Of a DNA stretch of 64,000 nt, positions 28,517 to 49,121 are shown piece by piece; the first letter of the stretch is position 1, and every line of letters begins with the position of its first letter. Made by a program: the position numbers and the translations under genes. Source of the stretch: an uncultured Akkermansia sp. (GTDB lineage Bacteria; Verrucomicrobiota; Verrucomicrobiia; Verrucomicrobiales; Akkermansiaceae); NCBI GenBank assembly GCA_949296365.1, contig CASFPZ010000002.1, positions 48,336 to 112,335 of the forward strand, given 5' to 3'. Under the pieces are notes generated by a model. The model searched no databases, was not told the origin of the DNA, and saw only the letters and a program-made list of their open reading frames with translations.

Positions 28517-28592
28517 GCTTGGGTAGCTCAGTTGGTAGAGCAGTAGACTTTTAATCTATTGGTCCCGGGTTCGAGTCCCGGTCCAAGTACCA
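28517..28592 (+). tRNA. lysT: tRNA-Lys (TTT anticodon)
   Basis: The anticodon arm is GTAGA-CTTTTAA-TCTAT, anticodon UUU. The D-arm TAGCTCAGTTGGTAGAGCA and T-arm CCGGG-TTCGAGT-CCCGG are standard, and the CCA end is encoded. The acceptor stem GCTTGGG/TCCAAGT has G-T pairs at both ends, a minor oddity. A strong terminator follows directly. Confidence 0.95.
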
Positions 28593-28775: not shown

Positions 28776-30476
28776 TTAACGGAAGACGAGTGTGACTCGG
28801 CCTAGAACGATTTGATCTTTTTTGCGGAGTTTCATGTATGTGTTAGGTTGCAGCCGACTCCCATTGATATAAGTGCCATTTGATGAACCGCAATCGCCGA
28901 GCAACAAGGCTCCATTCCGCACTTTCAAGGCTGCGTGGTGAGAGGACACTGTATTGTCCGGGATGCAGAGATTGTTGTCGTTTGCTCGTCCGATGGTATA
29001 CGAATGCGTAGCTAACAGATCTTGGAAATGAATCGAATAAAAAACCGCTTGGCCTGTAGAGAGGTACCCTTGCAAGTATAGGCCTGTTGCACTGCTCGCT
29101 ACTCCGGAACTGGACTGGGGTTGCGAAACGGCTACTGGATGGAGTGATGGCGATTGAGTGTTGTCGGCTTTTGTCAATGGTGACTGCTGTGAGACGGGGA
29201 CCGGACTTGGCAGTCGGGGCATGCGAGTGAGCTCTTCCCGCTGAGCTTGTTGTTCTTTTCGGACGTCGTGAATCCCCTGATTCGCTAGTACGATAACTGT
29301 GCCGTAGGCAATGAGCCCCCAGAGAAGAATCCGGAAAATTCCCAGATTGCCTAGAAAATGGGCGTTCCAAGAATAATGCAAGGCGATGGGAATGATGAAG
29401 AAGAGGAGAAAACGTGGATGAAAAAATCCTAAAAAAGCAGATTTTCCTGCCGAAGCTTTCCAAAAAGCTCCAGCGGCAATTGCTGTCCAAACGACGTGTG
29501 AGACTGGGGATGATATTGCACGGATAAAGAGAGTGGAGTTTATCCCTCCTAAGCGAGAAATTAATGATGAGTGTATATTATTAATGAATTGATTCAATAA
29601 ATCTTTGTTAGAAATGAGTTGCGCAATTTGTTCGGCAGGATGAACATCTTTAAAGAAATCGTTTAAAGTTATTAGAAACATGTTAATAATAATAGAGAAT
29701 ATATCAAATTTAAATATATATCCGAATGTTTCAAAAATAGCAAAACCAGCACCGACTGCGGCTCCGCAAAGAAGCCCTGTCAACGCACTTCCATTTTTGT
29801 ATTTTCTGGCTAAGTAAATAACAGCAAGGAGTTTTGCTGGTTCTTCCGTGAATGCAGCCCATGGTGCTGATGAAGCACTAATGAAATTATGAAAAATCAT
29901 AGTACAAACGAACGAGATGAAGGCGCCTGCAAACAGGAGTTTCAGGATGATGTACCAAGGGATATTGCGTTTGATATTGAGCTCAGCAAACATGACTAAG
30001 AAAGCCAATGGAAATGCCGCACCACCAATGATCAATAGAGCGGGTATATCTGGTTGAAATTTTAATGAAAATAATATATATCCTATAAATAAAACGATAC
30101 TCCAAAACAATACTCGCGAGAAGATCCACAGGGAGGGCCAGGTGGGTTTAATCTGGTCGAGTGGCGGGGTTGTGTAGCGAGAACCAGCGCAGAAGAAATC
30201 AATAATTTCATCTGTGTGATGCCGCCGGAAAATGTCCCTGAAAATGGCGGATAGATCGAAATGTCTGATTTTCTCCAATCCTGCTAATGTAGCTAGAGGA
30301 TTGAAGAGTCCGGCCAGGAGGCCTCCGGAATCGAAATATTCACGGACCGGGAGCCAGGACGGCATGCCTTGCTCCCAGATCATGGAGTCAGGGGGTAGAT
30401 GGCCAGATTCATAGAGATCCTTGATTTGGTCTTCTGAATAAGGACCTTCTTGTTGCTGGTTTCGTAGTAAATACAT
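28776..30476 (-). CDS. GYF_2 - PrsW-like intramembrane protease - FHA fusion protein
   Basis: A 566-residue protein with three parts. Residues 1-46 form a GYF_2 domain (EGPYSEDQIKDLYESGHLPP ... WEQGMPSWLPV). Residues about 115-400 hold several membrane segments with PrsW (M82) features: E211-E212 in FTEEPAK, E249 in AIFETFGY, H327 in SHVVWTA and H367 in ALHYSWNA. After a Pro/Ser/Gln-rich linker (about 405-465), residues 490-566 form an FHA domain with G496-R497, S511/S512-H513 and GSSNGTYING. PrsW enzymes cleave membrane anti-sigma factors, and FHA domains bind phosphothreonine. It is the last gene of the kinase/phosphatase operon, suggesting a protease steered by phosphorylation. The protease assignment is by motif only. 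Confidence 0.82.
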   Translation of the reverse strand: MYLLRNQQQEGPYSEDQIKDLYESGHLPPDSMIWEQGMPSWLPVREYFDSGGLLAGLFNPLATLAGLEKIRHFDLSAIFRDIFRRHHTDEIIDFFCAGSRYTTPPLDQIKPTWPSLWIFSRVLFWSIVLFIGYILFSLKFQPDIPALLIIGGAAFPLAFLVMFAELNIKRNIPWYIILKLLFAGAFISFVCTMIFHNFISASSAPWAAFTEEPAKLLAVIYLARKYKNGSALTGLLCGAAVGAGFAIFETFGYIFKFDIFSIIINMFLITLNDFFKDVHPAEQIAQLISNKDLLNQFINNIHSSLISRLGGINSTLFIRAISSPVSHVVWTAIAAGAFWKASAGKSAFLGFFHPRFLLFFIIPIALHYSWNAHFLGNLGIFRILLWGLIAYGTVIVLANQGIHDVRKEQQAQREELTRMPRLPSPVPVSQQSPLTKADNTQSPSLHPVAVSQPQSSSGVASSATGLYLQGYLSTGQAVFYSIHFQDLLATHSYTIGRANDNNLCIPDNTVSSHHAALKVRNGALLLGDCGSSNGTYINGSRLQPNTYMKLRKKDQIVLGRVTLVFR

Positions 30477-30559
30477 GGGAAAAATCGCTAGTGGAGAGAT
30501 TAGATCCTGACAGCCAAAAGGGTTGGTCGTTAATGGCTGTCAGGAGATGAGAAGGATGG

Positions 30560-33500
30560 CTATTCGAAATATCCTTCGATTTCTTGCATGATTAACTTGG
30601 CCGACTGTTCGAGGATATCTTTGTCGTCTAAGCGATTGACCCCTTCGAGGGATTCATAGGTATTCTCCAACTTCGTGTTGACGGTACCCATTTGTCCTTT
30701 GATTTGAGCTGTACTCCTCTTGACATTATTAATGAGATTGTCAGCGGCGCTTAAATTATTACGATATTGTTCTGGGTTACTTCTGCCTGTTAACGGATTG
30801 GCTTGTAGCCAGGAACCGGCATTGGCGCGAAGCCGCTGGGCTTTAGCTATATCTGCTTTGTTACGCTTGACAGCTCTTCTAGTATTGGCAAGAAGTTGAT
30901 ATAATTCTGTAATAGTGGTTTTTAACTGGGAGAGAACCATTTTATCCTTGGTGTCATTGGATTGTTGAACGTAGGCCTCGATAGCTTTAATGGCTTTGCC
31001 TGCGTCGGAAGGTTTGCCAGACATCATGACCCCAATGACGGCTGGTTTGCTTTCCTCATCGGCACTGTGGTCCTCATTATCACTGACTCCGAACAAATCT
31101 TGGATACTACTATCGGGATATTCCTTAAGTTTGGCAAGCGCTTGGGAATCTGGTTGAGATATTCCAGCCGCTTTTAGATGGCGAATGCAAGCCAGGGCAT
31201 TTCGGCTGTCGGATTTATATTCAGGGATGGCATGCCATAGAGGAGTTTTCCCATTTTTATCGGCTTTATCGGCTTTGGCTCCATGTTCCAGGAGGAATTT
31301 GACTGCGTCTGGGTTGTGCTGAGCGCAGGCGCTACAAAGCAGTTCAGTCATTTTACTCTCAATTTCTGATTGGGGGATGGATTCCAGAAGAGAATTGGCC
31401 AGGTCGTCTTTTTCGTTGGAAACCAAGTTTCCGAGTAAAGAAGAGAAATCACTGTCGTCTAGGTTTTTAGTCGCTCCTTTGTTGCACAAAAGATTGAAGG
31501 CTTCCTTCTGGCTGTGTTTGTCCCACTTCGAATTGTTAGCGAGGAGGATGAGCGGAGTTTGCTTACCGTCGACTTTGAGGGCAGGATCTGCACCATGATC
31601 CAGAAGATGGTGCATGATTTCACTGGCTTGGCTACTGTTGTCTTCCGTGGCACAGGAGATAACAATTCCAAGAGGTGTTAACCGATTATTAGATGCTCCT
31701 CCGGATATTTCACTGCTCCCATATCCGTAACCTCTCGATTGCTTGCCAGATAATGGTTTGTTGGGATCAGCCTTATGCTCTAACATTATTTTTACCAGAT
31801 CTGCTTTTTGTGTGGAAAGTGCCAGATAGAACGGTGTCTCTGGAGAATCCTTCAATGTCACATTGCAGTCGGCATCTTTGTCCAGGAGTAATTTAGCAAT
31901 AGGATCTAATCCGTTTTTGACAGCAAGATACAAAGCTGTTTCTCCTGTTTCCGGAATAGAATAATTAGGGTTTGCTTGGTGATCTAGCGCTAGTTTGACA
32001 AATTGTTCCATGAAGTTTTTATTATTACCTGTGTCTAACGCAAAAGTTAATAGATCATAGGTTTTATCCAATTTGTCGAGATGCAATGTATTGGTTGCAG
32101 GAACTCCGGCCTCAAATAAAAGATAGGCAAGGTCGAGGAACTGGGGCGACTCTTTTGTTTGTAACAAAAATAGCGCATTCTGATCATTAGCCATGTCCGG
32201 CAAAAGATTATTGTTTTTTAGTTCCCGGAATCCATCTGGGTAAGCTTCATCAATACATGTGTACAATAATTGCAATTTATCCTCTTGTGTGTAGTTGATA
32301 TTTTGCTTGGCGAAGAAACTGATGAGTTCTCGGTTACGTTTTCTTATAGCATTCCTAATGCAACCAGGGTCAAGAAGGGCTTTGTTAGTGATTAAGAGCT
32401 CGATCATTTCACGATTTTCATTCGCGATAGCGAGGTGAAGAGGGGGAGTTTGATTAGGACCAACAGGATAATTGGGATCTGCCGAACATTGTAGCAATAA
32501 TTTTGCCGCCTGCAGATCATTATTGGCAACAGCGATTCCCAGAGGCGTTATCAGAGATTCATCATTCGAAACTAAATTGACGTTTTTTAAAGATGAGAGT
32601 GCACTTTCGAGTTTTTGTTGGTCCATGTTATATGTGGCTAATACATCGAACAAATGTTGTTCCTCTGAGGTACTAACTGGTTGAGTTTCTGTGCTCCAGG
32701 ATTTATTGCTTATATTCCAGACAATAAAACCAGCCAAGAGAAGTATGACTGCGGAAGCAGTAATGGTGATTCGTTTGAGGGTTTTGTTAGAGGTTTTCCG
32801 TTGCGGTTTCCCAACAGGTGGCATTGTTGTATGAGGTGACTGAACCTGGGTTGGGGGAATAGGAGGAACCCCTGGGATAGTTCCGGCCATGTTTTGCGAC
32901 ATTGCAGGAGTTGAAAAAGGGATTTCGGGGGGAGGGATACGACCCTCTAGGCAATCGAGCCATTCGTTTGCATTTTGCCAGCGGGTTTCTGGTTGGATGG
33001 CGAATGCCTTATCGATGGATGATAGGAGTTTGTATGAATAGCCCTTAAGGTCTAGACGATGAGCGAGTGGAATGTAATTTGTGTCGCTAATGCGATCAAC
33101 ACTTTGAGGAGGATTTTCTCCTGTGAGGAGTTTATAAACCGTGCCAGCTAGGGAATAGACATCTGACCAGGGACCTGTATTACCGCGTGCCTGTAATTGT
33201 TCGAGAGGCGCGTATCCTTGGGTGGCAAGGATTGTTTGGGTTTTTTCGCTGACGATTTGGCGGGCCGATCCAAAGTCGATCAATTCGGGGATCCCATCTT
33301 GGGTTAGCAGGATATTGCCTGGTTTGATATCGCGGTGTAGGAGGTTATGGCTATGAATGTAATCCAAAGCACTTAACATGCGCTTTAGAAAATCAACAAG
33401 CCATTCTTCATTAGGTGCTCCGTATGTGTCGCGGAATTCGGATAACGAAATGCCTTCGATGTAGGGCATGACGTAGTAGGAAGTTCCGTTCGCGTTGAAA

Positions 33501-34723
33501 AACTGGAGGACTCGTACAATGTTAGGATGATTAAGATTGGCGAGAAGTTCGGCCTCATGCCGAAAATTGTTAAGATACCAGTCAAAGGAAACTTCTGTTT
33601 TCTTCTGCGTGAGTCTGGTTTGAACCTGATATTCTGCGTCTCTATGTACGAATTCTGTTGGAAAGTTTTCTTTGATGACGACTTTGTGGTGCAGATTATG
33701 ATCTTCAGCTAGGTAGGTAATACCAAATCCACCTTGACCAATAGTTTTAATGATAGTGTACCCATTGAGCACATAACCATCGGGAAGGCTCTCTCCTATC
33801 GAAGAGGCCGTTTTTGTCGGCTCAGAAGTGGTAGCAGGAGTTGGTTTCAATGCATTGAGCCATTCTTGGGCGTTTTGGTAGCGTTGACGATGATCGGAAA
33901 TTAGGGCATGATCGATAGTTTGCAACAATTGCGGAGAATAGAGCGCTAAACATTCGGGCCTGCGGCTTAGTGGAACGTATGGGTCAGAACCATCCATTGT
34001 AATACGGTTAAGACTTGGGATAGGGGGCTCTCCGGCAACGAGGTCGTACATTGTTGCGCCTAGTGAGTATAGATCACTCCACGGGCCTATTTCTCCATTA
34101 GTTTGCATTTGCTCAAAAGGAGCGTACTTTGGCGTGCCTATCTTGGTAAATGGATTGGCAGAGTTGAGTTCTCGCACGGTTCCGAAGTCAAGCAGCATTG
34201 GTTTGAGATCAGAAGTCAGCAGAATATTCTCTGGTTTGATGTCTCGGTGAATTCTTTGGCGTTGATGCAAGAAATTCAATGCATCCAAGATGTCGGTGAG
34301 AATGTTGACAAGATCCTGTTCTAGAAATGGTCCATTTTCTTGGCGGACGTCACCAAGAGATTTGCCTTCAACGTAAGGCATAACGTAGTAACTGGTATTG
34401 TTAGCCTTGAAATATTCCTTGACATTAACGATGCAGGGATGTGCCAAACTACTCAAAGTCTGAACCTCGGTGAAGAATTTTTTGGATATGTATTCGAAAT
34501 CATCTTCTTTACCTGGAAGAGGGCAAACTTGATAATCCTCGATTCGCGTGGCTGCATCTTTGGGAAAATTTTCCTTGATAACGACTTGTTCCTGTGAAGA
34601 CGATTCTAGGTTGGTTGCTAGGTAGGTGATACCAAACCCGCCCTGGCCTAATACCTTGACGATTTTGTATTTGCCCAGGATATAATCAACGGGCAATTGG
34701 GAAGATAATGGTGAGGATGACAT
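30560..34723 (-). CDS. Tandem Ser/Thr kinase with membrane segment and ankyrin-repeat tail
   Basis: A 1387-residue protein. Kinase 1 (about 18-292) has GQGGFG, K50 (VVIKENFP), H159-R160-D161 and D179-F-G. Kinase 2 (about 320-592) has GQGGFG, K351, H463-R464-D465 and D483-F-G. Both appear catalytically complete. A Pro-rich linker leads to one membrane span (about 653-670). The rest (about 690-1200) holds degenerate ankyrin repeats such as TPLGIAVANNDLQAAKLLLQ and TALYLAVKNGLDPIAKLLLD. A Gly/Ser insert lies near 995-1012, and a helical probable coiled coil occupies about 1235-1387. The predicted topology puts the ankyrin region outside the cytoplasm. It lies 15 bases after the preceding kinase gene. 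Confidence 0.93.
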   Translation of the reverse strand: MSSSPLSSQLPVDYILGKYKIVKVLGQGGFGITYLATNLESSSQEQVVIKENFPKDAATRIEDYQVCPLPGKEDDFEYISKKFFTEVQTLSSLAHPCIVNVKEYFKANNTSYYVMPYVEGKSLGDVRQENGPFLEQDLVNILTDILDALNFLHQRQRIHRDIKPENILLTSDLKPMLLDFGTVRELNSANPFTKIGTPKYAPFEQMQTNGEIGPWSDLYSLGATMYDLVAGEPPIPSLNRITMDGSDPYVPLSRRPECLALYSPQLLQTIDHALISDHRQRYQNAQEWLNALKPTPATTSEPTKTASSIGESLPDGYVLNGYTIIKTIGQGGFGITYLAEDHNLHHKVVIKENFPTEFVHRDAEYQVQTRLTQKKTEVSFDWYLNNFRHEAELLANLNHPNIVRVLQFFNANGTSYYVMPYIEGISLSEFRDTYGAPNEEWLVDFLKRMLSALDYIHSHNLLHRDIKPGNILLTQDGIPELIDFGSARQIVSEKTQTILATQGYAPLEQLQARGNTGPWSDVYSLAGTVYKLLTGENPPQSVDRISDTNYIPLAHRLDLKGYSYKLLSSIDKAFAIQPETRWQNANEWLDCLEGRIPPPEIPFSTPAMSQNMAGTIPGVPPIPPTQVQSPHTTMPPVGKPQRKTSNKTLKRITITASAVILLLAGFIVWNISNKSWSTETQPVSTSEEQHLFDVLATYNMDQQKLESALSSLKNVNLVSNDESLITPLGIAVANNDLQAAKLLLQCSADPNYPVGPNQTPPLHLAIANENREMIELLITNKALLDPGCIRNAIRKRNRELISFFAKQNINYTQEDKLQLLYTCIDEAYPDGFRELKNNNLLPDMANDQNALFLLQTKESPQFLDLAYLLFEAGVPATNTLHLDKLDKTYDLLTFALDTGNNKNFMEQFVKLALDHQANPNYSIPETGETALYLAVKNGLDPIAKLLLDKDADCNVTLKDSPETPFYLALSTQKADLVKIMLEHKADPNKPLSGKQSRGYGYGSSEISGGASNNRLTPLGIVISCATEDNSSQASEIMHHLLDHGADPALKVDGKQTPLILLANNSKWDKHSQKEAFNLLCNKGATKNLDDSDFSSLLGNLVSNEKDDLANSLLESIPQSEIESKMTELLCSACAQHNPDAVKFLLEHGAKADKADKNGKTPLWHAIPEYKSDSRNALACIRHLKAAGISQPDSQALAKLKEYPDSSIQDLFGVSDNEDHSADEESKPAVIGVMMSGKPSDAGKAIKAIEAYVQQSNDTKDKMVLSQLKTTITELYQLLANTRRAVKRNKADIAKAQRLRANAGSWLQANPLTGRSNPEQYRNNLSAADNLINNVKRSTAQIKGQMGTVNTKLENTYESLEGVNRLDDKDILEQSAKLIMQEIEGYFE

Positions 34724-34738
34724 GATAATAAGATGAGG

Positions 34739-36649
34739 TTAATTATTTAGATAAAAGATGATGCTAGCAATTATGAAAATTGCGATAATAATAATCTGTA
34801 AACACGATTGAGATTGATGTGTTGGAATTCCGGAGCTGGGAACACTGGCTTTGAGAAATTGAATCCAATCTACGGCGTTTAACCAGCGATTGGTGGGATC
34901 GAGTTCAAGCGCTTTGTCTATAGACCATAACAAAGGTTGAGGAAAGCTAGAGAGTAACTCTGCTTTTTGACTGAGCGACTCAAAGGGGACATGCTGAAGG
35001 AAACGTTGTCGGCTGTTGGTCGGAGTAGTGCCTGTTAACAACTTGTACATAGTAGCTCCTAGCGCATAGATATCTGACCAGGGGCCTAAGGGAGAGATAG
35101 AAATAAATTGTTCTGGCGGGGCATAACCTGGAGTACCAGATTGAGCTTTGGAGGATAACGGGTCTTCTTTCGACAAATCGCAAACAATGCTGAAATCTGT
35201 CAACATCATGTTCCCGTCAGGGAGCATAAGGATGTTGCTGGGCTTTAAATTGCGATGGATACAATTTTGGCTGTGTAAATATTGAAGAATATCCAGCAAC
35301 TTGAGCAGCATGTCGAGAAGTCGGCTGGCGTCTCTAATAGGCCCAGATTGCCCCAAGAGATGGCTGAGAGATTGCCCTTCTATATGAGGCATGACGTAGT
35401 AATCAACTCCATTAAAGTGAAAGGTTTGAAGGCATTTTATAATGCCCGGATGATCCCAAGAACCTAATAATTGAGCTTCAAAGCGAAAACGTTGGAGAGT
35501 AAGTCCGAACATATATTCCTGGCCACGTTTGGGAATAATGGAACCCTTGTTTGTTCGTATTGCCCAGGCCTCTGGAAAGTTTTCCTTGAGTTGTATTAGA
35601 TTGTTTTGCGAAATATCAAGCGCCAGGTAAGTGATACTTGTAGAACCTTGTTTTAATACCTGTTGAATGATGAAATTGCCGAGCTGAGTGTTTTGAGAAA
35701 GGCAATTAGAATTCGCATAAGGAGATGAAATAGTTTGGGTGGAATTAGAAGGTTGGGGCTGGCTTGAACGCCCCGCGAGAAAAGCTAGCCACTCATCTGC
35801 CGATTGCCAGCGATTTTCTGGCATGAGTTCCATAGCTTTGTCAATCGACCACAACAACAACTTAGAGTACTCAGAGGAGACGGAAGTGTCGCTGGTTAAG
35901 TCAATTGAGGAAGAGCGGTGGCCGAGGCGATCTGACCAGAGAGGTGGTGTGGTACCCATGATCAGATAATACATTGAGGCGCCTAAAGCGTAAAGATCGC
36001 TCCAGGGCCCAAGATTCCCATGAGTATTCGTTTCCTGTTCGATAGGGGAATATCCTTGTGTAACAATGGACGTTTGCGATTTGTTAGCAACAACTCGTTT
36101 AGCAGAACCGAAGTCAATCAATAACGGAGTATTTTGAGGCGTTAGCAGGATATTTTCAGGTTTAATGTCTCGATGCAGGAGATTTCTTGTATGTAAATAG
36201 GAAAGAGCATTTAGTAGCTGCGTCAAAAGCTTAATAATCCAATCTGAGGTGAGTTGGCCATTTTGAGAACGATATTGAGCTAAGGAAATACCTTCGACAT
36301 GTGGCATCACAAAATACGATGTATTGTTAGCCTTGAAGTATTCAATGATGCGAACTATATTAGGATGGTTAAGGCTGGTTAAAGTTTGAGCTTCTTTATA
36401 GAAGTTGTCGGTGTACCATTCGAAGGAATAAGGGTGATTGCCTGTTTCCCGTGCTCGCAATTTGTTTGAATTGGGTTCCCGGTAAGCTAGTGAAAAAGGA
36501 AAGTTTTCTTTGATGACGACGCGAGCATTCGTTTCCCTGTTGAGCGCCAGATAAGTAATGCCGAACCCTCCTTGTCCCAGTGTACCAAGGATGGTATACT
36601 TGCCTAAGCGGAATTGTTCAGGAAGATTTTGAGAACAGGAAACGGACAT
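34739..36649 (-). CDS. Ser/Thr kinase fused to a pseudokinase, tail-anchored
   Basis: A 636-residue protein with two kinase folds. The first (about 17-293) is intact: GQGGFG, K47 in VVIKENFP, H159-R160-D161 and D179-F-G. The second (about 324-600) keeps K355 (IQLKENFPE) but has QGST instead of the glycine loop, H465-R466-N467 instead of HRD, and D485-F-S instead of DFG, so catalysis is unlikely. A hydrophobic C-terminal helix (about 618-634) looks like a tail anchor. It lies between the PP2C gene and the ankyrin kinase. The second domain may be an allosteric or scaffold partner for the first. Confidence 0.92.
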   Translation of the reverse strand: MSVSCSQNLPEQFRLGKYTILGTLGQGGFGITYLALNRETNARVVIKENFPFSLAYREPNSNKLRARETGNHPYSFEWYTDNFYKEAQTLTSLNHPNIVRIIEYFKANNTSYFVMPHVEGISLAQYRSQNGQLTSDWIIKLLTQLLNALSYLHTRNLLHRDIKPENILLTPQNTPLLIDFGSAKRVVANKSQTSIVTQGYSPIEQETNTHGNLGPWSDLYALGASMYYLIMGTTPPLWSDRLGHRSSSIDLTSDTSVSSEYSKLLLWSIDKAMELMPENRWQSADEWLAFLAGRSSQPQPSNSTQTISSPYANSNCLSQNTQLGNFIIQQVLKQGSTSITYLALDISQNNLIQLKENFPEAWAIRTNKGSIIPKRGQEYMFGLTLQRFRFEAQLLGSWDHPGIIKCLQTFHFNGVDYYVMPHIEGQSLSHLLGQSGPIRDASRLLDMLLKLLDILQYLHSQNCIHRNLKPSNILMLPDGNMMLTDFSIVCDLSKEDPLSSKAQSGTPGYAPPEQFISISPLGPWSDIYALGATMYKLLTGTTPTNSRQRFLQHVPFESLSQKAELLSSFPQPLLWSIDKALELDPTNRWLNAVDWIQFLKASVPSSGIPTHQSQSCLQIIIIAIFIIASIIFYLNN

Positions 36650-36703
36650 ACAGCGTCGACATGTAGAGAGAAAGGTAAAAATGAGATTAGGGTGATGGTA
36701 AGA

Positions 36704-38371
36704 TTAGCCCTTGCGTAAAACGCTTCTAAACAAAGAATGGCAACGCTGAACCAATGACTTAAACACATTCCCCGAACTTGCAGAAGGTTGAGCGGTGGTC
36801 GGTGACGTTTCCCCTACCGAATTGATCCAGATTGCTGTGACGTTATCGGATTCCCCGTGTTTGGCTCTGACGGAGGCTTTCACCATTTTTTGGAGAGTTT
36901 GCGTGGCATGCGGTGTCCATTGTTGGACTGGCCATAATTCGTCAGGCAATTGGTTCCAAAGTCCGTCGCAACACAGTAAAAATTGGTCGCCTGGTTTCCA
37001 GCGACCAGAATTGATGTGCGGGACTGGGGCTCTGTCTCCTCCCAGGGCCTGAGTTAAATGGCTTTGGTCAGGGTGACCTTTGAGTTCTTCTTCCTTGATT
37101 TGCCCCATTAACATGAGTTTCCACGCTAATGAATCATCCTGGGTGATGCGTTTCCATTTCTGGCCGTCGTTGTGGTAGAGTCGGCAGTCTCCCGCGTTCA
37201 AACAAACGTATTTCCCTTGGCAGGCATAGAGAATAACAATGGCGCATTTGCCGCATAGATCGGGATTGTTGTGGCCGCTTTCGAGAATGTTGTCGTGAAT
37301 GAATTGTAGCTGAACTCGTAACAATTTTACGGCTTCAGATGGGGGGACATTGTACTGGAGTTTGCTCTCCCATAGTTCTTCCATCATGCGGACGGCTCGT
37401 TGAGCTGCTTCCGCGCCGCCTTGATGACCTCCTGCTCCATCGGCAACGACTGCTAGAAGTGCTCGTTCTGATTGGCGAAACGTACAGGCATCCTGCTGCG
37501 AATCTCGATCACCTTGATCCGATATGTGGCAAGCAGAACAATCAATGGGCCCATATTGACGGCGGAACCATTCTAAACGTTTCAGAACATCAATGACGAT
37601 GACTGTCGTGTTGTCTTGGTTGGGGCGTTTCTGTTCTTCTACGAGCTTTAACAAGAAGGAACAAACTTGTTCTGGTGTGTATTGAGCTATCTGTTCCTTC
37701 TGCAGAATCGACTCCAATTCTTCCTTGATTGTGTTGAGCCCGTCTGAGGCAATGATGAAACGGTCTCCAGGTTTTAAAACATAGGATTTACTTTCATCGA
37801 TATCGTCAGGGTGTCCAAGTCGCAATGGGTCACCACAGACTGCTGTATACAAAGCTTGAGGAGTTGTACAATCTTCTAGTTGTTTGGGGGGTGCTAACCC
37901 CTGTTTGATTTGCCTTTGTAAAACATTGTTCCAAGTATGTTTGAAATTCAGCGAGTAGAGTTTACCATCCCGGAATAAATAGAGTAGCGAATCTCCAACG
38001 CTGACCCAGGAATACTGGTCTTCTTTAATATAAAGGCAGATTAGCGTGGCTCCAGCATCATCCCCAACAAGTTTTAAATCCTTCAAATTCCGAATAGCTG
38101 CATTGGCATCGATCAAGGCTTGGGATAGGTTTTTCCCTTTTGCCTGGGATATGATCGAGGTCGCCAATGTTTTGACGATTTCTTGGCTGGCAAGATTTCC
38201 TCCAGAGTGACCCCCCATCCCGTCGGATAGAATGCTAATGACTTCCGTCGCATCCAATAGGTCACTTTCGTTAGTTGTGTCGGATGGAATAAGAAGAAAA
38301 GAATCTTCCTGGCGGCTACGAGTACCCTGAATTTGCTTTCCTTCCAGAAGGAAGATAAATTTCTCGTTCAT
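36704..38371 (-). CDS. Tandem PP2C-type Ser/Thr phosphatase
   Basis: The start MNEKFIFLLEGKQ at 38371 (555 residues) was chosen because the longer frame overlaps the upstream FHA gene and lacks family similarity there. Domain 1 (1-262) has QEDSF, D50-GMGGH, D127 (VGDS), D210-G and D253-N. Domain 2 (about 275-518) has QQDACTF, D311-GAGGH, D395 (AGDCR), D469-G and D509-N. All metal-coordinating Asp are present in both, so two active PP2C folds are expected. There is no membrane segment. It presumably reverses phosphorylation by the neighbouring kinases. Confidence 0.94.
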   Translation of the reverse strand: MNEKFIFLLEGKQIQGTRSRQEDSFLLIPSDTTNESDLLDATEVISILSDGMGGHSGGNLASQEIVKTLATSIISQAKGKNLSQALIDANAAIRNLKDLKLVGDDAGATLICLYIKEDQYSWVSVGDSLLYLFRDGKLYSLNFKHTWNNVLQRQIKQGLAPPKQLEDCTTPQALYTAVCGDPLRLGHPDDIDESKSYVLKPGDRFIIASDGLNTIKEELESILQKEQIAQYTPEQVCSFLLKLVEEQKRPNQDNTTVIVIDVLKRLEWFRRQYGPIDCSACHISDQGDRDSQQDACTFRQSERALLAVVADGAGGHQGGAEAAQRAVRMMEELWESKLQYNVPPSEAVKLLRVQLQFIHDNILESGHNNPDLCGKCAIVILYACQGKYVCLNAGDCRLYHNDGQKWKRITQDDSLAWKLMLMGQIKEEELKGHPDQSHLTQALGGDRAPVPHINSGRWKPGDQFLLCCDGLWNQLPDELWPVQQWTPHATQTLQKMVKASVRAKHGESDNVTAIWINSVGETSPTTAQPSASSGNVFKSLVQRCHSLFRSVLRKG

Positions 38372-38405
38372 GTTTAATAGCAGAGTATGAGCTGGAGTGA
38401 TGGAT

Positions 38406-39071
38406 TTAAGACCATGCAAATGATTCGTCGCAGAATGGGACAAATCGTAGTGTGGTATCGTCAGATAGACGGATGGTATCTCCTCGCTTGAGTTGTGTAG
38501 GCATTTCGAGCAATTCGTCATTGAGGTCGGCAATGCCAGAACCATCTGATCCCGGACGAGCACTGAAACGATTCCTTCGTTGATCATATGTCACGACGAC
38601 GTGGCCTTTACGGGAAATTCCTGAGTCATCAGGGAGGCATATCCGGTTGCTGGGATCTCTGCCAATTTGGTTTTGGCCAAATCCTAAAGAAAAAGTTTTC
38701 CCTTTCATGGGGCCTGTGATGGCAACTAGCCAACCAACGATAAAGTCGCCGGTAACCTGAATTTCCTGACTTGTGGTATGAGGGCGAACGAGAATTGTTC
38801 TTTCGTCGTCTTTAGAGGGACGCCGAACGATGACTGTTTTGTCATTGTCTGAAGTTGCATTTTCCCTACCCGAGGGCGAATGAGAAACAAGAGTTGTTGG
38901 ATTGTTGCCTGAAGTAGCAGGAGTGATGGGTGGCATGTCGATAGGGGGGATATGAACTACCTCAATAGGTGTAGACATATTGGGTGGGGTATCTGGAGAA
39001 GGTATGTAGATTGTTTGATCTCCTGAATTATTGCCTCGTGAGACAATTCGCGTTGGTTCTTGGCCTTGCAT
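38406..39071 (-). CDS. FHA-domain protein with threonine-rich N-terminal tail
   Basis: This 221-residue soluble protein has a disordered N-terminal half and a C-terminal FHA domain (about 112-212: GR at 137-138, S153-R154-x-x-H157, then LKRGDTIRLSDDTTLRF). The tail contains four repeats of the form T-x-x-[VI] in polar context: T7-RIV, T20-IYI, T79-VIV and T92-ILV. FHA domains select phosphothreonine and the +3 residue, so these look like phospho-acceptor/docking sites, as in GarA/Fha-type proteins. It lies between the vWA-FHA and PP2C genes. Confidence 0.88.
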   Translation of the reverse strand: MQGQEPTRIVSRGNNSGDQTIYIPSPDTPPNMSTPIEVVHIPPIDMPPITPATSGNNPTTLVSHSPSGRENATSDNDKTVIVRRPSKDDERTILVRPHTTSQEIQVTGDFIVGWLVAITGPMKGKTFSLGFGQNQIGRDPSNRICLPDDSGISRKGHVVVTYDQRRNRFSARPGSDGSGIADLNDELLEMPTQLKRGDTIRLSDDTTLRFVPFCDESFAWS

Positions 39072-39092
39072 AAGATGAAATTGGGTGACAAG

Positions 39093-40856
39093 TTAGAAAA
39101 TAGTACGGAGACGAAGTGTGACATCTCCTAGTTCGACGATGTCTCCATCGACGAGTTGAATAGACTCTTTTCTGTAAGTCTTTCCTTTGAAATAGAGTCC
39201 GTTGGAAGAGCCGACATCAGTGAGAGACCACTGTTTGTCGCGACCTTGTTTCAGAATGCAGTGGAACGATGATACCGATTGATCCTGAATGCAGATGTTA
39301 TTATTTGTGTTTCGACCAATAGAAGTTGAGGGTAACCTAATTTCCCAGATCTGGCCAGTCTTGACGTTTTCCAATCGGCACAAGACTGGGGCATTCATAA
39401 CTGTAGGGTTTACAGTTGGCGGCTCAGGAAGAGGGTCGGCAGGAGGAATCGTTTCATAAGATGAGGAAGGTGTTTTAGGAGGATTGTTATCTGGAACTGG
39501 ATCTGGTATAGCAAACGGTTTCTTCTTCCGGGTTGCTATAACAATTCCGATAATGACAATAAGAAGGATGACTCCTCCGACGATATACCAAAGATAGGCT
39601 GATAGACCTTCCTCAACGACAGGTTGTTTCGGGGTGGACTCTGGTGTGGGTTGGCCTTCAGGTTGTCCTTCAATAATTGGTGAATCATTATCTGTAATGG
39701 GAATGTCTGTGTCAGGGGGAAGTTTCCCTTCCATGAAATTTTGAATGATGGAGGCAGGGATGTAGAGAACACCTGATTGATTATTGTTCCCATTAAGAGT
39801 GATTTGAATCTCTTCTGCTTCGTTGGGCAAAGCAATTTCCAAATGAATACGGCATGGGTGAGCAGAGGCAATTAGTTTTTCTTCAGGTTTATTCTTCTCT
39901 GGTTGGGCTGTCCCTGTGTATTGCCAATATTTCCCCTGTGTGTCTTGAGCGATGTGTTGTAGATGCGGGAAGCCCTGTCTTAAGGCCTCGTTGTTGTGGG
40001 CAAACGCAAGGGTATAAATTGGAATTTGATTCTTTTTGGCTGTTTCGATGAGTTTGTTTTTAATGGAATTTTGGGCCTCGTGTTGCTTCGCGTCATTGCC
40101 ACCTGTTTCGTCGACTCCGTCAGACACAAGAACTAACGCCGTGTTTCCCTTGTTGCTACGAACCTCATCGCTTGTTAAGATGTTGAGCGTATTGGTGAAA
40201 ATGAGACTACTTTGCCTGAATTGAGGGGATTCGCTGAATTTCTTGTTTTTAGAGCGCGACAGGAGTTGTTCATGAAGAATCTTACGGCTTGGGTCGTTGG
40301 GAGGAGATGAAAACCATTTTTCAGTGCTAGCCCCTAACCCATATACAGTAATGGCATCCTGTTCAGGAAGAACTGAAATAATCTGTGCGGCGGTATTGAT
40401 CTCAGTTTGGACTGTTGTATTTCTGGAACTGCCACCGGATACATCAATGATAAAATGCCAATAATAAGAGGCTATGGGCATTTGACTAAACTTAACACCT
40501 AGGTTTGAATTACTGGGTACGGTTTTAGCATCAATCCTTGGAATGTTTTTAGCTCCAGGAACGCCAATGTTTTCTATGACGAGTTTTTTGGTAGTTTTAT
40601 TGAACGAGAGTATAGGCTTCCCGGAAACTGTGTTTCGTGCGTCTCCTGTGTAAGCAAGCGGCTGATTAGCTGGTGTGGAGTTGCTCGTTGCTGACGCACT
40701 TGGCGGAGCTTGAGCGGTAGATTCGTTAGGCGAGGCACAAACGAGAACTGCGCAACAACAAATGCTCCAGACAAACGCAGAGCGAAAAAGACGACGTTTG
40801 CCGACGCGGAAAATTGTTTTCTCTCTGCCGAGATAGTTTGAAAGCGAGTTGTACAT
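39093..40856 (-). CDS. Membrane protein with extracytoplasmic vWA domain and cytoplasmic FHA domain
   Basis: The ATG at 40856 (587 residues) is used because a TTG at 40898 would lie within the promoter. Residues about 22-50 form a signal peptide/anchor (FRSAFVWSICCCAVLVCA). A vWA-like domain (about 133-315) has D138-V-S140-G-G-S in place of the usual MIDAS DxSxS, and a later D246 in LVSDGVD. A span at about 420-441 leads to a Pro-rich linker and an FHA domain (about 508-580) with G514-R515, S529/S530-H532 and GSSNGLYFKG. It is the first gene of the operon and a plausible sensor: ligand binding outside, phosphothreonine reading inside. Confidence 0.88.
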   Translation of the reverse strand: MYNSLSNYLGREKTIFRVGKRRLFRSAFVWSICCCAVLVCASPNESTAQAPPSASATSNSTPANQPLAYTGDARNTVSGKPILSFNKTTKKLVIENIGVPGAKNIPRIDAKTVPSNSNLGVKFSQMPIASYYWHFIIDVSGGSSRNTTVQTEINTAAQIISVLPEQDAITVYGLGASTEKWFSSPPNDPSRKILHEQLLSRSKNKKFSESPQFRQSSLIFTNTLNILTSDEVRSNKGNTALVLVSDGVDETGGNDAKQHEAQNSIKNKLIETAKKNQIPIYTLAFAHNNEALRQGFPHLQHIAQDTQGKYWQYTGTAQPEKNKPEEKLIASAHPCRIHLEIALPNEAEEIQITLNGNNNQSGVLYIPASIIQNFMEGKLPPDTDIPITDNDSPIIEGQPEGQPTPESTPKQPVVEEGLSAYLWYIVGGVILLIVIIGIVIATRKKKPFAIPDPVPDNNPPKTPSSSYETIPPADPLPEPPTVNPTVMNAPVLCRLENVKTGQIWEIRLPSTSIGRNTNNNICIQDQSVSSFHCILKQGRDKQWSLTDVGSSNGLYFKGKTYRKESIQLVDGDIVELGDVTLRLRTIF

Positions 40857-41517
40857 ATGAATGTGGTCTTTAGAGTGGAAAACAGTATACCCCGGCAAGA
40901 ATACATGCCAACAGGGAATCCTGACGATACTATTGACATGGCGACAAAATTACGTCAATAAAAAAAAAGTGTAAAAACATGTTTTTTCTATGTGGATTAT
41001 GATATTTCTCGCTGTTGAGAGAAATGTTAATTACTTAGTAACTTCCATTAATTTTGTTGGATTGAATAATTAATAGGTGAAATAATGATATCTAAAATAT
41101 TATTATTAGAGTGTTAGTGATATACGCTATGAAGTGATATTAGGTCAAACAATATATGGCTTTTATTAATTATTTTACGAAATTTTGCGAGGCGAATCAA
41201 TAAGCAAGAGAATGGAGAATATTTCTTGAATTTACAATGCATATTGAAACATTGGAGCGATTGTTTTGATAATAAATTGCCTAAATATTGAATGTTTTAA
41301 TGGAGTGACCATCCATTGATTTACAATCACTTATAATAACATGGTGATTTTCAATTTGAAAAGGTATGAAGAGAAATATAAACAAGTAATCAACAAGAAG
41401 GCTTAGACTGGCAATAGAACCTACCATTGAGGCAAGAGTATATATGATTTCATAAATTTTCAATACTGTCGAATAATTGTATTGCCGATATTAATTAAGA
41501 GGGCTATAAAGCCCGAC
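40857..41517. other. AT-rich divergent intergenic region
   Basis: This 661-base gap separates the two divergent signalling transcription units. The left 60 bases hold the strong reverse-strand promoter. The remainder is markedly more AT-rich than the flanks. It contains no convincing gene: one 60-codon reverse ORF (41281-41463) encodes a hydrophobic peptide but lacks supporting signals. No clear -35/-10 pair for the forward unit could be picked out. Confidence 0.6.
40884..40911 (-). promoter_or_regulatory. Sigma70-type promoter of the signalling operon
   Basis: Reverse-strand TTGGCA (40906-40911) and TATACT (40884-40889) are separated by 16 bases. The expected start is near 40877, giving a leader of about 20 bases before the ATG at 40856. 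No terminator is evident between the six downstream genes, whose gaps are 15-83 bases, so it probably drives all of them. Confidence 0.7.
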
Positions 41518-41871
41518 ATGGATGAAGTGAATCAGGATGAGTTGAAAATGAATGTCAAGTTGTGGCTTAAAGCTAACAACTTTAATTATGCATGGCTCGC
41601 TGAGAAATGTTTCGTCTCTGAAGCGACTGTCCGCAACTGGATGGCCCGGAAACCAATTCCCGCGGCCAAGGAATATATTATCCGCGAGTTAATCAAGAAA
41701 TTGCCTTTGACTCTGCCCAGTCGTGTTAGTGTCGAGGAAGAAACGCGCATTACTCTTAAGTTGGGAGCCGAAACTCGCAAAGAGCTGGAGAAAAAAGCTT
41801 TTTCACAGGGCAAAACTCTGGCAGAATTCATTGCGGACGAGGTGCCCAAGTTAGGTGGTAGCAGTGAGTAA
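41518..41871 (+). CDS. Small DNA-binding protein with HTH and RHH-like segments
   Basis: The ATG at 41518 gives 117 residues; a TTG at 41482 is a less likely start. The N-terminal half contains a helix-turn-helix-like stretch (NYAWLAEKCFVSEATVRNWM). The C-terminal part (TRITLKLGAETRKELEKKAF then GKTLAEFIADEV) resembles a ribbon-helix-helix fold. Its end overlaps the following kinase gene by up to 17 bases, indicating translational coupling. It is divergent from the FHA/kinase operon and could be the local transcriptional regulator; this is inference from position. Confidence 0.78.
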   Translation: MDEVNQDELKMNVKLWLKANNFNYAWLAEKCFVSEATVRNWMARKPIPAAKEYIIRELIKKLPLTLPSRVSVEEETRITLKLGAETRKELEKKAFSQGKTLAEFIADEVPKLGGSSE

Positions 41872-44530
41872 AATATCGCAACAATCAGATCATGGAGAAA
41901 CGGTAAATTCTCCTCAAAAAGCCCAACCTCCTGCGGGAGAGGAGGTTGGCGATGTTGTTGTCGCGGCGTTAGAAGTTAATGGCACAGTGGAAGTTGCTTT
42001 GCCGCCGGGAACGGTACTGGGGGATAAGTACAAGATTCTTAAAGAGTTAGGGCAAGGGGGATTTGGTATTACCTATTTGGGGTGGGATTGCAAACAGGCC
42101 TGCAATATTGTATTGAAAGAATGGTTTGCTCCCGAGTTGTGTTTTCGAGATTCGGAGACATTGGAGGTAAAACGTTTGCCTCATGTTGCTAGCCAGATTT
42201 TTGACCGGGCCTGGGGGGCTATGTGGAAAGAAGCTCAAGTGTTGGGGAAGTTACAACACAAGAGGATTGTGCCGATGTACGATGTTTTTGCTTCAAACGG
42301 TAGCATCTTTTACGTGATGCCGTACATTGCAGGCGGATCGCTGCAGGATCGGATAGAGCAGAATAAGGGCCGGACGATAGTGGATCCCGATCAAGCGAGA
42401 ACGTGGCTGAGAGAGCTGTTGGAGGCTCTCAAGTATTTGCATAAAAAGCAAATTTACCACCGTGACATCAAACCGGGAAATATCTTGTTTGACGATGATG
42501 ACATGCCCGTATTGATCGATTTTGGGGCAGCTCTTGATATGCCAGAAGTTACGTCGACTATTACTCAGGGCCCTTTGTCGTTGGAATATGCGGCGCCCGA
42601 GCAAGTTTTAGGCGACAAGGATATTGGCGCATGGACTGATTTTTATGCCTTGGCGGCGACTTGGTATCGTTTGATTTCCGGAATTCCTCTTCCGAATGCC
42701 AGGAGACGTCTGGAGGGCGAACCAATCATGCCGTTGGTTGATTTGATGGCGGGTAGCGCATGGCCATGTGAGTTATTGAGGTCAATAGACCATAATTTGA
42801 GCATCAACCCTCATATGCGATGCCAAAATGCGACTGAATGGTTGGGTATGCTTGAGGTTGAGAATGAGGCGCTACAAGATTTGGCGGCTGTAGAGTATGT
42901 AGGATTGCCACCCCATTCTCGTTTAGAGAATGGTAGTTATGAAATTCTTCGCGTGTTGGGGCAGGGCGGATATGGCATTACTTATTTAGGGCTTGATCTG
43001 AAATTACAGCGTAACATTGTCCTAAAAGAATGCTTTTTGAATGGCATGTGCATGCGCATTCCGGGGTCGCCTCAAGTGAAACGCATTCCTCATGTGCCCC
43101 CTCGTGTATATGAGAAGATGATGGAGACAATGAGGCGTGAAGCAAGAGTGTTGGCCAAGTTGCACCATGAAAGCATCATCCCCGTGTATGAGGTTTTTGA
43201 GGAAAACGGAACCGTTTATTATGTGATGCCTTATTTGTCGGGCGGCTCTCTTAAAAAGAGGTTGGCGCAACGAAACACAGGGAAGGAAATTGAGCCTCAA
43301 CAAGTGGTGGAGTGGTTGACAGTTGTTTTGGCGGCGCTTCGGTATTTGCATGCAAGAAAGGTTTATCACCGCGATATTAAACCTGATAACATTTTATTTG
43401 ATGAAACGGGTAAACCGGTGTTGATTGACTTTGGCGCCTCTTCGTCTATGGCTGATGCCTCGATGACGGTAAGTCGTAGCCCATGTTCACCCCAATATGC
43501 CGCGCCAGAACAAATTACGGGTGGAAAGATTGGGGCGTGGACTGATTTCTATTCATTGGCTGCAACCTGGTACTACCTGATTACTGGGCAACAGGCCGTT
43601 GACGCTGGGAATCGGATGCTGAATGACACGCTGACGCCTCTTGTTGATTTGATGAAGGACAGTTCATGGCCCCAGGGGCTACTGAAGGCGATTGATGTCA
43701 ATTTAGCTCTTGCGCCTCAGCTTCGATGCCAGAATGTTGACGAGTGGTTGCATTTGTTATCAACTTCTCCTCATGATAGCGCTCCTCCTGAGATCACGGC
43801 CTCAAAGGATGCGAAAGCCGGTGAAAAACATTGGAGGCTTGCCATTGGCGTGGTTGCCTCGTTGGGAATTTTAATAACTAGCACGATTGTTCTTTGGAAG
43901 TTGACCTCAAACGAGGTTTTACCTGTCAAAGAAGAACAGAGTGAGAAAAAAACTCAGGAAACACCTGATTCTTCAAGTATAAGAAGTAGTGATCTGCGTG
44001 ATTATCAGGATATTTTATATCAAAAAGTTTATGATTATTATAAGATAGATGACTATTTGTTTAAGAAACGACAGTATGAGCAGAGAACCGATCGCGTGAA
44101 GTTGAATTTGCGACGCGAACTAGAAGGATTGTGTTGGAAGTATGAACGCTATATTGGAGCCGCTGTTTCTCCAGAGGAAGTCCAGGAAATTCTAAGTCAA
44201 ATTAACCAAAGCTATGATGATTGGAATGATAAATGGAGAAAAGAAGTCGAGCAACTTTATAGACAGTATATAGATGAGGTGATGAGACCGTTTGCCGATA
44301 TCAGGAGTGATTTACTCAAAAATTATCCGGTGGCCAATAAGGATGAACTGCAGATGTTACCTGCAATTAAGGAACGCTTGTCTGATGATTTGAACGAGAC
44401 TGAGGTTGCTCCTTTTCTTACATACCATTTTTCTGACAGCTTGTCTGAATGGGGTCAACAAATAATGAATTCATTGCGAGAACAAGCCATGGCTCGAGCC
44501 CAACAATTAGCGCTTGCTGGGAATCGATAA
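41855..44530 (+). CDS. Tandem Ser/Thr kinase, single-pass membrane protein
   Basis: Starts at GTG 41855, or GTG 41864, both inside the upstream regulator gene; 891 residues from the first. Kinase 1 (about 59-335) has GQGGFG, K88 (IVLKEWF), H202-R203-D204 and D222-F-G. Kinase 2 (about 362-637) has GQGGYG, K391, H505-R506-D507 and D525-F-G. Both look active. A membrane span (about 661-682) leads to a 200-residue highly charged, helical, probably periplasmic domain of unknown fold. The kinase domains resemble each other more than those of the reverse operon (both carry the PYxxGGSL segment), suggesting internal duplication. Confidence 0.93.
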   Translation: MVAVSKISQQSDHGETVNSPQKAQPPAGEEVGDVVVAALEVNGTVEVALPPGTVLGDKYKILKELGQGGFGITYLGWDCKQACNIVLKEWFAPELCFRDSETLEVKRLPHVASQIFDRAWGAMWKEAQVLGKLQHKRIVPMYDVFASNGSIFYVMPYIAGGSLQDRIEQNKGRTIVDPDQARTWLRELLEALKYLHKKQIYHRDIKPGNILFDDDDMPVLIDFGAALDMPEVTSTITQGPLSLEYAAPEQVLGDKDIGAWTDFYALAATWYRLISGIPLPNARRRLEGEPIMPLVDLMAGSAWPCELLRSIDHNLSINPHMRCQNATEWLGMLEVENEALQDLAAVEYVGLPPHSRLENGSYEILRVLGQGGYGITYLGLDLKLQRNIVLKECFLNGMCMRIPGSPQVKRIPHVPPRVYEKMMETMRREARVLAKLHHESIIPVYEVFEENGTVYYVMPYLSGGSLKKRLAQRNTGKEIEPQQVVEWLTVVLAALRYLHARKVYHRDIKPDNILFDETGKPVLIDFGASSSMADASMTVSRSPCSPQYAAPEQITGGKIGAWTDFYSLAATWYYLITGQQAVDAGNRMLNDTLTPLVDLMKDSSWPQGLLKAIDVNLALAPQLRCQNVDEWLHLLSTSPHDSAPPEITASKDAKAGEKHWRLAIGVVASLGILITSTIVLWKLTSNEVLPVKEEQSEKKTQETPDSSSIRSSDLRDYQDILYQKVYDYYKIDDYLFKKRQYEQRTDRVKLNLRRELEGLCWKYERYIGAAVSPEEVQEILSQINQSYDDWNDKWRKEVEQLYRQYIDEVMRPFADIRSDLLKNYPVANKDELQMLPAIKERLSDDLNETEVAPFLTYHFSDSLSEWGQQIMNSLREQAMARAQQLALAGNR

Positions 44531-44601
44531 ACAGAGAATCGCCAAATTCTACGGGGATGGGGCAGATTTTAGCGATTCCCCGGAAAAACGTATGAGCATA
44601 T

Positions 44602-44766
44602 TTACTGTTGATTGTTGTTGGGGGTGGTAGCAATTTGAATAATACCCCATACGATGAGGCCGGCTCCTACGACCATGAGCGCTCCGGAACTGTCAGTCCC
44701 CCGGAGTACGAAATTGCCGCTGCAGCCGCCAATGATGAATGCGATTCCTATAATGATGTTCCACAT
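44602..44766 (-). CDS. 54-residue two-span membrane protein
   Basis: The ATG at 44766 fits a promoter 26 bases upstream. The peptide has two hydrophobic stretches (NIIIGIAFIIGGCSGNFV and GALMVVGAGLIVWGIIQIA) separated by LRGTDSS, a pattern seen in small uncharacterised bacterial membrane proteins. It is convergent with the tandem kinase and may be functionally linked only by position. Confidence 0.6.
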   Translation of the reverse strand: MWNIIIGIAFIIGGCSGNFVLRGTDSSGALMVVGAGLIVWGIIQIATTPNNNQQ

Positions 44767-48290: not shown

Positions 48291-49121
48291 TTAATTGAAT
48301 TCCTCCATATAGAGGCATTCTGGCAACTGGTTGAGCGAGGCTTTCTCATGATGGCTAGCTGCAAACAATGCGGTTGATAAGGCCTCCCCCTCTGTAGCGG
48401 TGACAGTGACTACAGAGACACGATGTTTCCCTGGTATATAATTAAACGTTTTGGGATGGATAATATGTTGGCGCCCCATGGTATTGTTGCCTGAGGTTGT
48501 AAGGCATTGGTTGTGCAGATTGTATGTGTAAAGAGCGTCGCCTTGTTGAGTTTCACCCATGCCGACGGGCCAACCCAAACCATTAGGATGATTTCCCCTA
48601 GCCATGATGGAACTGTTCCCAAAATTGAGCAGAGCATCTTCAACCCCTTCAATATCTAGAAGTTTTTTGCATGCATCAAGGGCGTATCCCTTGGCAAGTC
48701 CACCCAAATCCAGGATTAATCCGCAGTGCAGGCGAGTGATCGTGCGTTGTTTTTGATCGAGTTCCCAACAAGCCATTCGGTTGGTTAATGTCTTGTCGGA
48801 TTGAATAGCAATATCAAATAATCCGTTGGTTTTCTGATGCCATTGGCGGGCTAGTTCTAGGATGTTAAACATATCCTGAGAAATGGAAACAGGGAAATCA
48901 ATTGCTGCTGAGTTGATGGCAGATAATTCACTTTGCGAATCAAAGCGATTGAATAGAGTCTCGAGACGTTGTGTCTCCATGAGAATGAGAGAGGCCAGGT
49001 TTTCGGCTTGTTCTGAGGATTGGTTACAAAATAGAAGATCCATCCTAGAATGCATGACAGAAAACCATGCATAATTAATAGTTGAACCATTAGGTAATTC
49101 TTTGTGGATAACTGGAATCAT
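48291..49121 (-). CDS. apbE: ApbE-like FAD:protein FMN transferase
   Basis: The 276-residue protein shows the ApbE pattern: LETLFNRFDSQSELSAIN, FDIAI, LDLGGLAKGYALDACKKLL, ALLNFGNSSIMARG and a C-terminal VTVTATEGEALSTALFA. The family attaches FMN to threonines of partner proteins such as Rnf/Nqr subunits. No signal peptide or lipobox is evident, so it would act in the cytoplasm unless exported unconventionally. No flavoprotein partner is adjacent. Confidence 0.85.
   Translation of the reverse strand: MIPVIHKELPNGSTINYAWFSVMHSRMDLLFCNQSSEQAENLASLILMETQRLETLFNRFDSQSELSAINSAAIDFPVSISQDMFNILELARQWHQKTNGLFDIAIQSDKTLTNRMACWELDQKQRTITRLHCGLILDLGGLAKGYALDACKKLLDIEGVEDALLNFGNSSIMARGNHPNGLGWPVGMGETQQGDALYTYNLHNQCLTTSGNNTMGRQHIIHPKTFNYIPGKHRVSVVTVTATEGEALSTALFAASHHEKASLNQLPECLYMEEFN

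Follow-up and report, generated by a model that had tools for sequence, protein, structure and literature searches.

What could a membrane protease be doing at the end of a row of genes for protein kinases, a phosphatase and FHA domains? The question is raised by a locus of an uncultured Akkermansia sp. (assembly GCA_949296365.1, contig CASFPZ010000002.1), which we analyzed in a stretch of 64,000 nucleotides spanning positions 48,336 to 112,335 of the contig (hereafter the window, with positions counted from its first letter). Open reading frame (ORF) calling recovered all eight adjacent genes of the initial annotation in two divergent units: six minus-strand genes between 28776 and 40898, forming one tight unit, and two plus-strand genes at 41482-44530 (Table 1). 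The six encode a vWA-transmembrane (TM)-FHA protein, an FHA protein, a double PP2C phosphatase, a kinase-pseudokinase with a TM segment, a double kinase with a TM segment and an ankyrin tail, and a GYF-PrsW-FHA fusion. The gaps between them measure only 15-83 bases, if the PP2C gene starts at 38371, and are thus consistent with a single transcript. Whether these six genes, hereafter the cassette, together make up an inside-out switch, with cytosolic threonine phosphorylation gating proteolysis at the membrane, is in our judgement an evenly balanced question.

The core of the cassette recurs in the genus. Matches to the vWA-TM-FHA protein at E <= 1e-15 were present in seven of 76 Akkermansia genomes, which together hold eight clusters: the protein is full-length in six genomes (G000, G241, G002, G438, G441 and G446), with a second locus in G446 and a further one in G436. 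In all eight clusters the vWA-TM-FHA gene is followed on the same strand by an FHA gene and then a PP2C gene, accompanied by at least one kinase gene. Seven of them also contain an FHA-fused membrane protease, drawn from three unrelated families: PrsW in one cluster (that of the window), HtrA-like trypsin in five and M12 in one. The neighbourhood survey suggested in the initial annotation was centred on the PrsW fusion; within Akkermansia it is the order vWA-TM-FHA, FHA, PP2C that is kept, while PrsW-FHA did not recur among the genomes examined. The proteolytic output proposed there gains support from these FHA-proteases, although the conservation does not extend to PrsW itself. Somewhat more tentatively, we propose a class of cassettes whose vWA-TM-FHA sensor, kinases and PP2C would write and erase a phosphothreonine code, to be read by a refillable protease-FHA output slot (PrsW, a periplasmic HtrA-like protease or M12) on a constant core, so that phosphorylation would control proteolysis across the inner membrane. 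Three of the trypsin-type clusters share no flank genes (6, 6 and 8 flank ORFs compared), so a single conserved neighbourhood does not account for their linkage.

Beyond this set, when 84,980 genomes of named species were scanned for the vWA-TM-FHA protein, four loci emerged, three from Akkermansia and one from a Verrucomicrobiales record; the scan missed G438, G441 and G436 and possibly left out the window's own record. In 387 genomes of the phylum, most matches to vWA-FHA covered the FHA domain only, and among the matches listed only those of G000 and G241 reached the vWA part. As side observations, genes of the MotA/TolQ/ExbB family lie in three of the vWA-FHA clusters (L299 1821-2579, L300 5238-5993 and L121 2306-3208), not in that of the window, and trypsin-type clusters encode, next to their kinases, small proteins resembling outer-membrane beta-barrels, two or three in each (L278 16261-17682, L277 15571-17171 and L276 17570-20266).

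Regarding the exchanged proteases, the Trypsin_2-TM-FHA proteins of five clusters exceeded the Pfam cut-off in two cases and were recognized by profile or phmmer matches in three. By sequence, their nearest solved structures are the HhoA and HtrA proteases; the H and D motifs are present in all five, and the GGxSGGP pattern in four. The M12 protein (L299) is a reprolysin-TM-FHA fusion that scored 30.0 bits (cut-off 27) and contains HExxHxxGxxH. HtrA-FHA was detected in five of the 76 genomes, all of which also carry vWA-FHA (Fisher p 3e-7, rising to 1e-6 when G436 is included among the vWA-FHA genomes; kinship ignored). We then compared the readers in a tree of FHA domains, with each cluster used once (loci L122, L255 and L277 duplicate L278, L276 and L298) and a background of FHA domains at E < 1e-5 only (31). 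The standalone FHA proteins of the clusters formed one clade (9 rows, 100/100), with that of the window next to those of L299 and L300 at 99/88. The vWA-FHA tails also grouped together (83/96), and the HtrA FHA tails made up a clade of their own (100/97).

The window's own protease exceeded the Pfam cut-off for PF13367 and belongs to the PrsW family; residues E211, E212, K215, F245, E249, H327 and H367 are invariant in 34 aligned sequences. An AlphaFold2 (AF2) model built from 34 sequences (mean predicted local distance difference test score, pLDDT, 82.1) places GYF and FHA at opposite ends of a helix bundle, and the best 50 matches of the protein in the PDB are dominated by FHA domains, several of them solved with phosphopeptides. 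At least 13 of the 36 congeners in the first draw have PrsW relatives, and the window genome has one more; seven Akkermansia copies from six genomes (ORFs in the fetched loci) gave no FHA match. From these comparisons PrsW-FHA looks like a chimera, whose tail aligns with that of the M12-FHA protein at 37% over 136 aa (E 4e-20) and groups with it at 87/94 in the FHA tree. The fusion itself is not unique, as P0046 and P0059 carry PrsW-FHA outside this cluster family. The protein-database entry for the window's version represents two member sequences on five contigs, which argues against an assembly artefact.

Pfam confirmed most of the domain content first read from the sequence (GYF, PrsW, FHA, PP2C, kinases and ankyrins) and motifs bore out the pseudokinase, while the vWA domain could be assigned only through relatives, the HTH match stayed below the cut-off and the RHH fold comes from reading the sequence. 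HRD and DFG are kept in five of the six kinase domains in the three kinase proteins of the window, including both domains of the ankyrin kinase; the second domain of the kinase at 34739-36649 has HRN for HRD and DFS for DFG and is a predicted pseudokinase. PP2C is double in three clusters, namely the window, L299 (35-49% identity) and L300 (41% identity), and single in five; double versions outside the window genome were found in G436 and G446, neither of which belonged to the first 59-genome draw, where the window genome alone showed one. No vWA domain was detected by Pfam in the window protein itself. Four relatives scored 16-21 bits for PF00092, under the cut-off of 23.8, and a fifth (L300) passed it, with 30.4 bits for VWA_2 (cut-off 27) and 28.2 for VWA (cut-off 23.8). 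D-x-S and S/T-D motifs recur across the aligned family, and the DxSxS motif of the window protein is degenerate. Its TM segments lie at about 36-54 and 430-448, and modelled alone it reached an AF2 pLDDT of 40.7. The vWA profile, searched against PDB sequences, had one insignificant match (E 0.18), and a protein-database search with vWA-FHA matched only a near-copy of it. Charge patterns favour a predicted topology with the FHA tail of this protein inside, and with the catalytic part of the ankyrin kinase in the cytosol and its ankyrins outside; for the remaining cassette proteins they are weak.

If the six genes do form an inside-out switch, the vWA domain, predicted to be extracytoplasmic, or the outward ankyrin tail would probably sense an envelope signal, and the kinases, once activated by it, would phosphorylate threonines on one another or on a substrate. 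Docking on the phosphothreonine through its FHA tail, the protease could then be brought together with a transmembrane substrate, and PP2C would reset the mark. Such a pathway might serve in envelope stress or surface sensing. It would also invert the logic of site-1 proteases like DegS, where stress is sensed outside, by placing the protease under the control of a cytosolic phosphothreonine reader; bacterial Ser/Thr kinases would gain a proteolytic output, and Akkermansia a candidate envelope-control system. With protease families already exchanged naturally on a single signalling core, the model lends itself to testing by domain exchange.

Several results weigh against such a switch. The cassette contains no substrate, sigma or anti-sigma gene. 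One entire contig holds the eighth cluster (L300/L301 of G436), and no protease-FHA match was found there; the PrsW-FHA protein was seen in the window genome alone among those examined. One of the five trypsin-FHA proteins misses the GGxSGGP pattern. As for the readers, a pattern search found no canonical GR..S..H..NG motif in the soluble FHA protein, and four of the five trypsin FHA domains have SRxQ instead of the usual SxxH, so some readers need not bind phosphothreonine. In the FHA tree, where long branches call for caution, the protease tails do not form one group (two label changes; 0% of bootstrap trees unite them), and a single reader tail common to the three protease families is not supported by these sequences.

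With regard to possible substrates, the window genome encodes three Sigma70_r2 proteins. On its contig C25 (L281 1414-2588), an ECF-like (extracytoplasmic function) sigma factor precedes a 155-aa single-TM, anti-sigma-like protein, which is a candidate substrate only. On contig C4 (L280 1408-3202), another ECF-like sigma factor precedes a kinase of the GITY-type family whose catalytic motifs are seemingly lost (HGL, LSG), a possible pseudokinase-sigma pair.

One could argue that the cassette is an accessory conflict or anti-phage module, in which kinases sense infection or attack and the FHA-protease, as an exchangeable effector, damages or remodels the envelope of its own cell. The patchy distribution in the genus, the unrelated flanks and the change of protease family would suit it, as would the scores of the kinases on PADLOC kinase models such as mad6 and PD-T4-6. 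However, such matches are expected of any Hanks kinase, and with the NCBIfam MAD6 model the two cassette kinases reached 239-253 bits and the third kinase of the locus 221, against a cut-off of 460. PMC7159879 describes vWA-MoxR/VMAP conflict systems that use vWA, trypsin-like, kinase and FHA domains, many of them arranged around MoxR, and one of its themes joins a kinase, PP2C and a standalone vWA gene. In our cluster, by contrast, Pfam gave no MoxR/AAA match (nine proteins) and no nuclease or NTPase match, and the vWA and protease parts belong to membrane proteins with FHA tails. Moreover, vWA-FHA had no match in a phage collection at E 1e-5, nor PP2C in a plasmid collection at E 1e-20, and the beta-barrels or ExbB-like proteins of several clusters point to envelope physiology. 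Taken together, we regard a conflict function as rather unlikely. We are similarly doubtful of a chance fusion, in which the kinase/PP2C/FHA/vWA core would regulate some process of the cytosol or envelope and would have recruited PrsW-FHA as one phosphorylated client among several, not as its output. The protease-free cluster of G436, the restriction of PrsW-FHA to one genome and the abundance of FHA-less PrsW relatives in the genus all fit this explanation, but it does not readily account for FHA-proteases of three families in seven of eight clusters, nor for the fact that HtrA-FHA was not found outside vWA-FHA genomes among the 76.

The two plus-strand genes could also take part, the HTH-RHH (helix-turn-helix/ribbon-helix-helix) regulator and its kinase controlling the cassette as an eight-gene system. 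The divergent adjacency across about 580 intergenic bases invites this idea, and other HTH-RHH/kinase pairs adjoin divergent operons too, two of them with PrsW in the flank. Of the 37 Akkermansia genomes in the first draw, 35 gave HTH-RHH matches (all but G005 and G029), as did two of 22 others, with several copies per genome in some species. By tblastn at E <= 1e-6, the fetched loci contain 53 such places, the window's own not among them, and at 39 of them a related kinase, always of one and the same kinase cluster, starts within 1 kb downstream. The genes diverging from these pairs vary and encode, among others, GYF, ankyrin and small membrane proteins; inspection by eye added SPFH-like, dynamin-like and radical-SAM-like ones. 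An FHA, PP2C or vWA match was not obtained in any of the 53 flanks, nor was HTH-RHH matched in the sequence fetched around any of the seven other vWA-FHA clusters. Since the pair is genus-wide with other cargo and is not near those clusters, it is, from its sequence distribution, a separate module outside the six-gene cassette; the view of the eight genes as one self-contained island is not supported, and joint control of the cassette appears very improbable. The HTH of the window's regulator is a weak match, and upstream of its gene we saw only a promoter-like TTGC...TGCTA pattern and no shared operator. As an observation in its own right, HTH-RHH with a TM kinase, diverging from cargo of mostly membrane proteins, may be a diversifying system (window 41482-44530; loci L116-L133, L138, L146, L154-L157, L168-L169 and L173-L199).

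Compared with known systems, the cassette is a variant of kinase/PP2C/FHA signalling with an FHA-fused protease. TerY-P triads consist of vWA, PP2C and kinase. The window likewise brings these three genes together, vWA being assigned through relatives only, but its vWA is part of an FHA-tailed TM protein. The threonine phosphorylation pathway of the type VI secretion system (T6SS) comprises a kinase, a phosphatase and an FHA protein and responds to envelope injury (PMC12133291). The cassette resembles PpkA/PppA/Fha1 of the H1-T6SS in the linkage of membrane kinase, PP2C-type phosphatase and FHA protein, and differs in having several, doubled kinases and in carrying FHA tails on a protease and on a vWA protein. 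As the initial annotation had anticipated, neither system is linked to the locus: the 99.6% complete genome (2.67 Mb, 86 contigs) gave no match to the sheath protein VipB/TssC (PF05943; E. coli control positive) and none to TerD (PF02342; controls positive in two genomes), and both links were set aside.

The proteases lead to regulated intramembrane proteolysis (RIP), where PrsW and DegS act as site-1 proteases of anti-sigma factors (PMC10202637). PrsW of B. subtilis, which acts on RsiW, is of the same family as the window protease, and DegS of E. coli, which acts on RseA, is HtrA-like, as is the trypsin version. Unlike these, the Akkermansia proteases have FHA reader tails, where DegS has a PDZ sensor, and no sigma or anti-sigma gene is linked to the protease in the cassette. 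Other phyla have trypsin-FHA proteins too (P0087-P0115, most of them Trypsin_2 plus FHA, some named Eubacteriales, Pseudomonadota or Miltoncostaeaceae), with 24-34% identity to the Akkermansia ones. A literature search on PrsW with an FHA domain, in which subscription journals are little covered, gave polymorphic toxins only; in contrast to those PrsW-dependent toxins, the window's PrsW ends in an FHA domain and not in a toxin domain. Kinase architectures are described in PMC1262709, with no such cluster in its accessible part. By title and abstract start, and with the same coverage of journals, no kinase/PP2C/FHA/protease system of this kind was found among the papers listed, which does not establish its absence from print. 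A search on Akkermansia together with FHA domain, protein kinase and phosphatase returned no paper, and among the matches listed for eukaryotic-like or Hanks-type kinases none concerned that genus (title and abstract start).

Table 1. Features of the locus, with positions in the window and the evidence for each assignment.
Feature	Position	Strand	Evidence
tRNA-Lys, left cassette boundary	28517..28592	+	ARAGORN
GYF-PrsW-FHA fusion, predicted proteolytic output, 566 aa	28776..30476	-	Pfam GYF_2, PrsW-protease and FHA above cut-off
Double Hanks-type kinase-TM-ankyrin tail, 1387 aa, TM about 649-667	30560..34723	-	Pfam kinases and ankyrins
Kinase-pseudokinase-C-terminal TM, 636 aa, TM about 612-630	34739..36649	-	Pfam two kinase domains; motifs
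Double PP2C, 555 aa from likely start	36704..38371	-	Pfam; longest ORF (627 aa) to 38587
Soluble FHA protein, 221 aa	38406..39071	-	Pfam FHA above cut-off
vWA-TM-FHA, predicted sensor and cluster-family marker, 601 aa	39093..40898	-	Pfam FHA; vWA via relatives
HTH-RHH-like regulator, separate genus-wide module	41518..41871	+	Weak HTH match; RHH by reading the sequence
Double Hanks-type kinase, one TM, 891 aa, separate module with HTH-RHH	41855..44530	+	Pfam two kinase domains
Small predicted membrane protein, 70 aa	44602-44814		Only a sub-cut-off DUF3185 match (Pfam)

Two of the starts in Table 1 were chosen over those of the longest ORFs: 38371 is likely the PP2C start rather than 38587, and 41518 likely that of HTH-RHH rather than 41482. 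We also considered a classic genomic island and set it aside, the GC content being even (0.40-0.48 in 2-kb windows); in the rest of the window, exact matches to tRNA-Lys with its next 30 bases do not exceed 13 bases. The tRNA-Lys marks a break in gene order, with the genes to its left conserved in G015. At three of 20 comF loci (G015, G017 and G004), tRNA-Lys is followed, in the place of the cassette, by a gene of 296-300 aa, which in G015 encodes a xylose-isomerase-like TIM barrel.

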